This document shows positions 151 through 33,686 of a stretch of DNA of 33,929 nucleotides, in pieces. Position 1 is the stretch's first letter. The number at the start of each line of letters is the position of its first letter. The translations under genes and the position numbers were made by a program. The notes beneath the pieces are model-generated. The model saw only the letters and a program-made list of their open reading frames with translations. It did no database searches and was not told where the DNA came from. Source of the DNA: Chloroflexota bacterium (GTDB taxonomy: Bacteria > Chloroflexota > UBA6077 > JACCZL01); contig JADZEM010000221.1 in the NCBI GenBank assembly GCA_020850535.1, positions 1-33,929 of the forward strand, written 5' to 3'.

Positions 151-175
151 GTTCGTGACTCAGGGCGATTGCATG
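136..175. repeat. Perfect 15-bp inverted repeat, 10-nt loop
   Basis: CATGCAATCGCCCTG (136-150) is the exact reverse complement of CAGGGCGATTGCATG (161-175), with a 10-nt spacer. The left arm is the right terminus of the MITE-like element. The right arm is identical to the left terminus of another copy (17582-17596), so this may be the junction of two elements placed end to end, the second being reduced to its tip. Confidence 0.75.
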
Positions 176-6211: not shown

Positions 6212-6290
6212 GCGCGTCGTGCACGGTCGTCGGGGCTTTCAACCCCCGACTGCGCGTCTTGCGACGTTGTGGGAACACTAACGAACGTGG
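6212..6290. repeat. Dispersed palindromic repeat, family B copy 1
   Basis: GTCGGGG and CCCCGAC form a hairpin at 6229-6250 around a CTTTCAA-type loop. Flanking GCACGG on the left and TGGGAAC...AACG..CGTG on the right match the copy at 17594-17685. The family shares its core palindrome with the MITE-like element but lacks the CAGGGCGATTGCATG end here. It sits between two convergent genes. Confidence 0.5.
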
Positions 6291-11584: not shown

Positions 11585-11604
11585 GTCTTGCCCTCACCCC
11601 CCGC

Positions 11605-17536: not shown

Positions 17537-17581
17537 GCTGGGTTTCGGGATTCGAGTTTCGGGTTTCGGGCGCTCGCGTCA

Positions 17582-17690
17582 CAGGGCGATTGCATGATGT
17601 GCACGGCTCGTCGTTTCGTCGGGGCTTGAAAGCCCTGACTGCCCGATTCGCGGTGGAATGGGAACGTCACCGATCGTGCGATTGGCCTGG
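17582..17690. repeat. Dispersed palindromic repeat, family B copy 2, with CAGGGCGATTGCATG end
   Basis: It starts with CAGGGCGATTGCATG (17582-17596), identical to the arm at 161-175 and close to the MITE terminus at 31116. It continues through GCACGG and the hairpin GTCGGGG...CCCTGAC (17619-17640), and ends with the TGGGAACGTCACCGATCGTG segment that resembles the 6212-6290 copy. No right terminus is found. It therefore links the two repeat families. Just upstream, at about 17541-17571, is a short GGGTTTCGGG-type repeat. Confidence 0.55.
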
Positions 17691-17707
17691 CTCGCGTCGC
17701 GATTCAG

Positions 17708-29213: not shown

Positions 29214-29230
29214 GCAACGACCGCGGTAAA

Positions 29231-29444
29231 GGCCCTCACTCCCCAGATGGCCCTCACCCCCCAGGTGGCCCTCACCCCCAGGTGGCCCTCACCCCCCGGC
29301 CCCCTCTCCCTGTGCGCGGGAGAGGGGGAGACGCACGAGAGTTTCGTTCCTCCCCCTCTCCCTGTGCGCGGGAGAGGGGGTCGGGGGGTGAGGGCCTCCT
29401 CCGGGGGTCGGGGGGTGAGGGCCTCCCGGGGGGTGAGGGCCTCC
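29231..29444. repeat. Inverted array of GGCCCTCACCCCCCAGGT units with two fixed-loop hairpins
   Basis: Three 17-18-bp units starting GGCCCTCAC (29231, 29249, 29267) and a fourth at 29284 face right. Three reverse copies (GGGGGGTGAGGGCC, about 29383, 29410 and 29428) face left. Between them are two copies of CCCCTCTCCC-TGTGCGC-GGGAGAGGGG (29301-29327 and 29353-29379). The region is a large potential cruciform between two convergent genes and is a likely two-way transcription stop. Confidence 0.85.
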
Positions 29445-31003: not shown

Positions 31004-31115
31004 AGGCGAGGCGAGTGCCAGGTATGGCGGCGTGAACGCTACGGCGTGGGCGAGCTGGCCGCCGGCGGCGTGTTGCTGCCGGAGGTGCCGGTACCAGCGG
31101 CAGGGGTCGCCGTCG

Positions 31116-31332
31116 CAGGGCGACTGCATGTTCATTGGTGTACCCGAAGGATCATGGAACGGTCGGTCGGGGACTGAAGTCCCCGCCTACACGCATTCAG
31201 TCGCTGCGCGACGGACGCCGGAAACGGCAGGGACTGGTGCGACTGGAGCGTCGCGCAGCGACTGCAGGATGGTAGGCGGGGCTTTCAAGCCCTGACGACG
31301 CTGCGCGACGCGCTCATCATGCAATTGCTCTG
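31116..31332. mobile_element. Complete 217-bp MITE-like element
   Basis: Its ends are CAGGGCGACTGCATG (31116-31130) and CATGCAATTGCTCTG (31318-31332), a 15-bp terminal inverted repeat with 12 matches. Inside are a GGGGACTGAAGTCCCC palindrome, a second pair CGCCTAC...GTCGCTGCGCGAC and its inverse GTCGCGCAGCGAC...GTAGGCG, and GGGGCTTTCAAGCCC. The inner and outer arms nest, so the element folds into a multi-branched structure. There is no transposase. A copy with the same inner parts lies at 1-150. No clear target-site duplication was seen. Confidence 0.6.
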
Positions 31333-31496
31333 CGCGCCGCCGCTGGCGTTGGGCGCGCGCGCAGAAGGGCGTTGCACGAAACGCACGCCTGGGACGCGTG
31401 TGCACTGGCGGCGGCCGGCGTGATGGTGAGCTGAGCGCGCGTTTGAGCGCTCGCGGTGCAGCCTGCCACAATCTGCACGGTACACCCGCACGCCGC

Positions 31497-32578: not shown

Positions 32579-33097
32579 CTACCGACCACCTGAGCGCGCC
32601 AACCAACGCACCTCCGGCCCGTACACCAGCCACGCTCGGCCCCGCAGCTGCGACCGTGTGAACGGGCCGACGTGGCGGCTGTCCGTGCCCACGGCGAGGT
32701 TCTCGCTCAGCAGGAAGTAGTCGTCTGGGCCGAGCGCCCAGGCGCCCGGCGACGATCCGACGACGGCCCGCCCGAGATCGAGCGGCTCGCCGTCGATCAG
32801 CAGCGTATCCCGTGCCAGCGTGACCACCTCGCCCGGCAGCCCGGCGACCCGCTTGAGCAGCAGCGATGGTCCGTCCACCGTCTGCCCGTCGGCCAGGACG
32901 AGGTCGCCGCGTCGGGGGCAGCGGAGGGCCGAGGGCCAGTAGGCCAGCAGATCGACGAGCACCAGCTCGTTCTCGTCGAGCGCGGGGACCATGCTGCGGC
33001 CCCGCACGGACACTCGCCGCTGCCCTGCAAGCCACAGGATCAGGGCCAGCAGCAGGCCGGCGGCGGCCAGGGCCGGCGGGGCAGATCGACGCGCCAC
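32579..33097 (-). CDS. sodX: S26-family signal peptidase, nickel-SOD maturation protease
   Basis: A 172-residue membrane-anchored serine protease of the signal peptidase I family. One membrane helix lies at about residues 8-25. The nucleophile is Ser35 in GRSMVPAL and the general base is Lys82 in LLLKRVAGLPGE. The late GPDDYFLLSENLAVGTDSRHVGPF box with its SRH motif matches the family. Nickel SODs are made with a short leader that must be removed to expose the His1 nickel ligand, and such a peptidase gene is commonly placed beside sodN; here it is divergent with it across 88 bp. GTG 33097 has GGGAG 5 nt upstream. It lacks the longer periplasmic domain of housekeeping LepB, consistent with a dedicated role. 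Confidence 0.85.
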   Translation of the reverse strand: MARRSAPPALAAAGLLLALILWLAGQRRVSVRGRSMVPALDENELVLVDLLAYWPSALRCPRRGDLVLADGQTVDGPSLLLKRVAGLPGEVVTLARDTLLIDGEPLDLGRAVVGSSPGAWALGPDDYFLLSENLAVGTDSRHVGPFTRSQLRGRAWLVYGPEVRWLARSGGR

Positions 33098-33152
33098 AAT
33101 CGCTCCCAGAGGGGAAATTCGCCCGGTGTGCGTTCCCGGGGTACACTTTTCT

Positions 33153-33166
33153 AGGTTACACAACCT
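33153..33166. promoter_or_regulatory. Candidate operator in sodX-sodN intergenic region
   Basis: AGGTT (33153-33157) and AACCT (33162-33166) form a palindrome with a 4-nt centre, 20 nt before the sodN start. GGTACAC and GGTTACAC also repeat about 15 nt apart. A similar CTAGGTTA...ACCT lies at 7056-7072. It may be a site for a nickel- or oxidant-responsive regulator; none is named by the sequence. Confidence 0.35.
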
Positions 33167-33185
33167 GAACCTGGGAGATGGATCG

Positions 33186-33686
33186 ATGAGCCTGGTCGAT
33201 CGAATGATTGCCGCTGGCCTGCGCGCGCTGCCGGCTGAGGATGCTGCCGCACACTGCGACGTTCCCTGCGGCATCTACGATCCGCACACCGCACAGCTCG
33301 CCGCCCACACCATCATCCGCATGGTCGATCTGATCGAAGGCCTCGGGGAACTGAACAGCACCGAGAAGCTGCACACCTTCAGCCGCCACGTCGCGGTCAA
33401 GGAGGAGCACGCGAAGATCGCCGAGCACGAGATCATTGTGCTCTGGTCGGACTACTTCAGGCCCGAGCATCTGGAGAAGGCCCCGAACCTGCACGACATC
33501 GTGTGGAAGACGGCCAAGCTGACCTCGACGGTCAAGCAGCAGATCAACAAGCAGGCGGCGCTCGACCTGCTGGCCGGCACGCAGCAGATCGCCGAGATCT
33601 TCTGGGCGAGCAAGGGCGTGGCGACGAAGCGGGTACCCTCGGGCCAGCCGTCGGGCGGCGAGATCGTCCAGCCGGTCCTGGGCTAG
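33186..33686 (+). CDS. sodN: Nickel superoxide dismutase
   Basis: It converts superoxide to hydrogen peroxide and oxygen using a nickel ion. The nickel hook is HCDVPCGIYDP: His23 becomes residue 1 after removal of a 22-residue leader, with Cys24, Cys28 and Tyr31 corresponding to Cys2, Cys6 and Tyr9 of the Streptomyces enzyme. The helical remainder (HTIIRMVDLIEGL, FSRHVAVKEEHAKIAEHEI, LWSDYFRPEHLEKAPNL, VWKTAKLTSTVKQQ) fits the four-helix bundle. The mature part is about 144 residues, some 27 longer than the Streptomyces 117-residue protein because of a C-terminal Gly/Pro/Ser-rich tail (TKRVPSGQPSGGEIVQ). GGGAG lies 8 nt before the ATG. It is divergent from the maturation peptidase gene. Confidence 0.96.
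   Translation: MSLVDRMIAAGLRALPAEDAAAHCDVPCGIYDPHTAQLAAHTIIRMVDLIEGLGELNSTEKLHTFSRHVAVKEEHAKIAEHEIIVLWSDYFRPEHLEKAPNLHDIVWKTAKLTSTVKQQINKQAALDLLAGTQQIAEIFWASKGVATKRVPSGQPSGGEIVQPVLG

Follow-up and report, generated by a model that had tools for sequence, protein, structure and literature searches.

A 217-bp stretch of nested palindromes in the DNA of an uncultured Chloroflexota bacterium raises the question of what kind of element it is, which enzyme moved it and how its family took on its present forms. The window analyzed here is the entire contig C221 (33,929 bases), one of 227 contigs in an assembly of 7,653,396 bases. The initial annotation had read the stretch as one complete member of a mobile, non-autonomous family with no transposase in view. 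Our comparisons lead us to propose, with a probability of about 0.93, that it is a MITE with 15-bp ends that was moved in trans by an ISAs1-family transposase, and that the family grew from a form of 108 bp through the 217-bp form to dimers.

Structure and setting of the 217-bp element

The inverted ends, the inner inverted pair and the two hairpins described in the initial annotation were all located within 31116-31332 (Table 1). The central palindromic module of this copy is missing in relatives of 107-109 bp, which possess the same ends as the 217-bp form but only one central hairpin, whereas in the 217-bp form two hairpins flank the module. Folded as single-stranded DNA, the 217-bp strand gave a z score of -4.86, and 0 of 200 shuffles folded as well. 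The two 10-bp flanks agree at 7 positions, a level that is consistent with an older insertion and that, taken alone, only hints at it. The copy apparently sits between genes: on one side is a response-regulator/GAF gene of the minus strand, and downstream follows a gene for a D-2-hydroxyacid dehydrogenase.

Table 1. Coordinates of the MITE, its parts and its relatives within the window (contig C221)
Feature	Position	Strand	Detail
Full MITE, 217 bp	31116-31332	+	91% identity to family consensus
Left terminal inverted repeat CAGGGCGACTGCATG	31116-31130	+	In sequence
Right terminal inverted repeat CATGCAATTGCTCTG	31318-31332	-	CAGAGCAATTGCATG on - strand; 2 mismatches vs family end
Central palindromic module	31185-31277	.	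GCCTAC / GTAGGC at borders, GTCGCTGCGCGAC / GTCGCGCAGCGAC inside
Inner inverted pair GCCTAC / GTAGGC	31185-31190 / 31272-31277		
Second inner pair GTCGCTGCGCGAC / GTCGCGCAGCGAC	31200-31212 / 31250-31262		
Hairpin 1 GGGGACTGAAGTCCCC	31169-31184	.	Stem covaries across copies
Hairpin 2 GGGGCTTTCAAGCCCT	31278-31293	.	Stem covaries across copies
Left flank, possible decayed 10-bp target duplication GTCGCCGTCG	31106-31115	.	7/10 identical to right flank
Right flank, possible decayed 10-bp target duplication CGCGCCGCCG	31333-31342	.	7/10 identical to left flank
217-bp MITE copy cut by contig start	1-150	+	Corresponds to consensus 69-217, 93% identity
10-bp linker GTTCGTGACT	151-160	+	Identical linker in other tandem dimers of genome
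Second copy's exact 15-bp end, cut off right after end	161-175	+	Sequence match
Older 108-bp single-hairpin member	17582-17689	+	Second, decayed end at 17675-17689
Flanks of the 108-bp member, GCTCGCGTCA / GCTCGCGTCG	17572-17581 / 17690-17699		9/10 target duplication
Decayed relic of 107-108 bp member	about 6215-6286	+	78% over 72 bp

Exact end motifs occur in the window at 136-150, 161-175 and 17582-17596. The recurrence of the element's parts at 1-150 had been noted from the sequence and holds against the family consensus; this copy is incomplete because the contig begins inside the element. The other two motifs had been described as ends standing alone, and both are exact. The one at 161-175 is a 15-bp stub that belongs to a second copy, joined to the 1-150 copy through the 10-bp linker; the one at 17582 is no lone end but opens a complete 108-bp member whose second end has decayed.

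The window holds several further features. Between 17721 and 22566, two tandem copies that are about 75-80% alike encode a family 5 solute-binding protein at a spacing of about 2.5 kb, and an SBP_bac_5 domain was found in the first of them. Dense GC-rich repeats in direct and inverted orientation (CCCCCTCTCCCTGTGCGCGGGAGAGGGG and its relatives) occupy 29230-29444 and appear also at 11597 and 33736, while an open reading frame at 32991-33686 encodes a nickel-containing superoxide dismutase domain (PF09055).

Copies, boundaries and target duplications

A genome-wide copy count had been put forward as one way to examine the family's mobility. The end pattern CAGRGCRAYTGCATG occurs 359 times in the genome, versus 0 times for its reversed control, and the boundaries are common to the copies, which mostly measure 217-218 bp. 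A DNA search with the 217-bp query returned 124 local matches, many of which are the palindromic core matching on the second strand; among the other copies, the best is 92% identical over 217 bases. We paired ends in 60 stretches around the first listed motif places, together with the loci from the DNA search and the window. Among the 68 end pairs obtained, 45 span exactly 217 bp, 9 span 218 bp, 6 span 107-109 bp and 8 have other lengths. At the ratio seen in the 60 stretches, 68 elements for 81 ends, the full set of 359 ends corresponds to a family of about 300 elements, a rough estimate since up to 5 mismatches were tolerated in a partner end. Identity to the consensus ranges from 79 to 97% among the 56 full copies.

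Target duplications were sought in the 67 end pairs for which both flanks were available. A perfect 10-bp duplication was present in 15 of the 67 pairs versus 0.45 expected when the right flanks were shuffled, and allowing one mismatch raised the count to 19 versus 0.62 expected (maximum of 3 in shuffles). Perfect repeats of 5-9 bp were found in none of these 67 pairs. The remaining 48 elements lack a 10-bp duplication even with one mismatch allowed, in part because dimer halves were entered as single elements, which lowers the count, and in part because of decay. The many copies, their single boundary and the 10-bp duplication agree with the mobile, non-autonomous family of the initial annotation, and on these sequence features the 217-bp element is best classed as a MITE, that is, as a transposase-less member of a high-copy, ISAs1-type family.

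The two local hairpins offered a different reading, in which the repeat would be a structured non-coding RNA or a regulatory or terminator element that was duplicated and kept for its function. In an alignment of 52 of the 56 full copies, 99.2% of the hairpin cells were paired and 31 cells carried changes in both partners, a result that none of 500 shuffles reached, and this covariation, like the strong folding of the strand, is what such an element would display. The same 52 copies gave no covariation signal for the long-range stem, however, and since the covariation of the hairpins involves few allele states, swapping of hairpin modules explains it as well as selection on structure does. Moreover, no Rfam family was matched by the window element, while target duplications and transposase-type ends are present. 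We therefore regard a functional RNA or regulatory origin as extremely improbable.

A further candidate was a REPIN/BIME-type repeat, dispersed through the action of a REP-associated Y1 (HUH) transposase. Y1 single-strand transposition is, to our knowledge, not expected to give target duplications and inverted ends, and here the 10-bp duplications are sharp and the ends are 15-bp inverted repeats. A Y1_Tnp (PF01797) search that gave matches in 5 of 14 control genomes returned 0 in the genome of the window. The core does hold GTAG-headed imperfect palindromes (GTAGGCGGGGCTTTCAAGCCCCGAC) in inverted pairs that resemble GTAG REPs, and such GTAG repeats are known from Chloroflexi, according to passages of PMC3733652. 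Since this search found no Y1 transposase in the genome and the 10-bp duplications largely refute it, we rejected a REP/RAYT origin, which we consider very improbable.

Outside its own genome, the family left little trace. No substantial match to the 217-bp element turned up in 60 relatives (two short, marginal ones occurred, in G047 and G053), and a 25-mer of the family had 0 matches in genome and viral-contig collections, where its own genome may perhaps be absent. When the flanks of 25 insertions and of two window elements were joined, no clearly interrupted gene emerged among those inspected, and no empty site was found. The joined flanks do give open frames that cross the junction, and the frames inspected resemble those that GC-rich DNA yields by chance; for the longest (L025), the left part had no Pfam match and a CoA-transferase lay only downstream on the right. 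Three loci (L004, L007 and L009) share alike upstream flanks (CGTTCGGCACGC or close to it, followed by CAGGGCAAGCCTG and CTCCCCC), perhaps a second intergenic repeat family that serves as a target. In many contigs, for example C20, C24, C25, C28, C30, C31, C39, C41 and C221 (at position 1), an element lies no more than a few hundred bases from a contig end, and the MITE repeat probably fragments its own assembly.

Tandem pairs and proposed growth of the family

Tandem pairs of the element were recorded at 18 junctions (ends with up to 3 mismatches), 15 of which carry a 10-bp linker. In a wider look, a GTAGCAGCAT-type linker was found at 15 junctions, and 12 of these share one decayed left inner end, CAGTGCAATCGTATG, with 4 mismatches; the located outer ends of the dimers with this inner end have 0-1 mismatches. 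Both outer flanks could be read in 6 of the 15 GTAGCAGCAT-type dimers, revealing 3 perfect 10-bp repeats, 1 repeat at 9/10 and 2 cases with none. Another 5 junctions, among them the one in the window, have the linker GTTCGTGACT, and a perfect duplication encloses 1 of the 2 dimers whose flanks are readable. The duplications around whole dimers differ from each other (AGCGGGTGAG, GTTCCGGGAG, ACCTGCAGCT and GGTGCTGGCC), and the L075 and L089 dimers, the latter with a linker of 17 bp, have the perfect outer duplications GTGTCCTGAA and CCCGGGGGCC.

Such pairs could instead be local duplications, produced by unequal recombination or by repeated insertion at one site, that are immobile as units. In support of this notion, the length of most linkers equals one target duplication, as expected for a dimer formed beside its own duplication, and the dimers L009, L096 and L015 have no matching outer flanks. 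Yet an identical linker and an identical decayed inner end recur at many sites, and various 10-bp duplications enclose entire dimers, so we judge purely local duplication to be unlikely. As read from the sequences, the inner ends of the dimers have decayed, the outer ends are intact and the duplications around the pair are fresh, a pattern which suggests that each pair moves as one unit, by means of its outer ends. In the linker, the target duplication of the founding pair probably survives as a fossil. Dimers of this kind would record the formation of a composite mini-transposon, in which one target duplication supplied the linker and the inner ends were freed from selection.

In the proposed mechanism, an ISAs1-family transposase acting in trans would excise a MITE with CAGGGCGATTGCATG terminal inverted repeats and insert it at a target opened by a staggered cut of 10 bp. 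The family would have started from the single-hairpin form of 107-109 bp, the 217-bp form, with a central palindromic module of roughly 109 bp, would have come next, and dimers (217-10-217) would have followed, with the outer ends transposing the pair while the inner ends decay. By our inference the short form is ancestral; the short copy L098, which matches the modern arms, may be a deletion product. A fuller version, in which the MITE was assembled stepwise from 108 to 217 bp and on to a 444-bp dimer, the pair is the replicating unit, and compensating changes keep the hairpins paired for transposition or host tolerance, is put forward tentatively and strikes us as somewhat doubtful.

The ISAs1 connection and related systems

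The CAGGG ends, together with a duplication length near 8-10 bp, fit the ISAs1 family and pointed to its transposase, which is presumably of the DDE type. As the initial annotation had stated, no transposase is in view, and a profile search of contig C221 gave neither an NF033564 nor a PF01797 match. Elsewhere in the genome, the NF033564 search located ISAs1 pieces on C136 (one copy in three pieces) and a fragment on C187, and the assembly yielded no intact ISAs1 transposase; intact copies may have been lost from a contig set that is broken at repeats. The most complete copy, at C136:21230-27692 (L031, L033 and L034), has an apparent frameshift in its transposase, and its last 37 model positions lie more than 5 kb from the remainder. 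By eye, the DNA next to these pieces resembles part of a group II intron that includes the end of an HNH-type maturase. The ends of the ISAs1 remnants (CAGGGGGATTGCATA, CAGGGCGATTGTATA and CAGGGCGATTGCATC) are 1-2 bases off the MITE end, finishing in ...ATA or ...ATC where the MITE end finishes in ...ATG.

An ISAs1 match (NF033564) is present in 15 of the 29 genomes of the class. For the exact 15-mer of the MITE end, the genome of the window has 337 occurrences, G001, a genome of the same family but another genus, has 2, and the other 27 have 0. In G001, the two 15-mers bound a single ISAs1 element of 1256 bp (C70:1658-2913), whose transposase matches the entire NF033564 model (1-314); by eye, the transposase seems to have a frameshift close to its C-terminus, and the element has no target duplication. 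The transposase with CAGGGCGATTGCATG ends that had been anticipated thus exists as an ISAs1-family element in a genome of the same family, but the genome of the window itself holds only broken copies.

We then compared 81 ISAs1 loci, comprising the G001 copy and 80 named relatives of its transposase. Both ends were located at 75 loci (up to 6 mismatches allowed), and 29 of these have a target duplication of 4-15 bp, which in all 29 cases is exactly 10 bp long, although several come from one genome and are partly non-independent. The ISAs1 copies of Janthinobacterium sp. CG3 carry exactly CAGGGCGATTGCATG at both ends, and in this control genome all 12 exact 15-mers adjoin its 7 ISAs1 transposases. 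For the genome of the window, 72 of 81 sampled ends lie on clear MITE arms and 9 on arms outside the threshold, including several visibly related variants, while IS-like interiors were found at 0 of the 81. The same 15-mer therefore marks an insertion sequence in CG3 and MITEs in the window's genome, a good contrast. By eye, the likeness between the MITE and the ISAs1 element is confined to the 15-bp ends and does not extend into the arms. Judged by these ends and duplications, the 217-bp copies were probably moved by an ISAs1 transposase that exists today or existed in the past.

The transposase family of a high-copy repeat that looks like an orphan could in this way be named from its ends and duplication length alone, and an uncultured Chloroflexota bacterium provides a clean ISAs1-type MITE family. 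It is a mobile family of a known kind, with the ends and target duplications of ISAs1 insertion sequences, and the mobility of its dimers is its most interesting feature; in the open-licence literature, we recognized no description of an ISAs1-driven MITE. With ISAs1 itself (NCBIfam NF033564) the element shares the CAGGGC... ends, down to a 15-mer identical in G001 and Janthinobacterium sp. CG3, as well as the 10-bp duplication, but it has no transposase gene, measures 217 bp rather than about 1.2-1.3 kb and has a palindromic interior that looks unrelated. The inverted, GTAG-headed palindromes of the core recall REPIN/BIME and GTAG REPs as presented in parts of PMC3733652, from which the family differs in its ISAs1-type ends and duplication and in that no Y1 transposase was found.

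MITEPye1, which the sections of PMC11578231 at hand describe as thought to be driven by IS1182-family elements, is likewise small and transposase-less, with IS-like inverted ends, direct repeats and long stem-loops. In those sections it has 1-3 copies per chromosome, as opposed to hundreds here, where the ends are of ISAs1 type and several nested size classes occur. A published parallel to paired mini-elements that act together is offered by the TIMEs, which excerpts of PMC4133298 describe as Tn3-derived, two of them (TIME-COMP) acting like a composite transposon that moves the DNA between them. The dimers described here differ from that arrangement in their ISAs1-type ends and in being direct tandem pairs with only a 10-bp linker.
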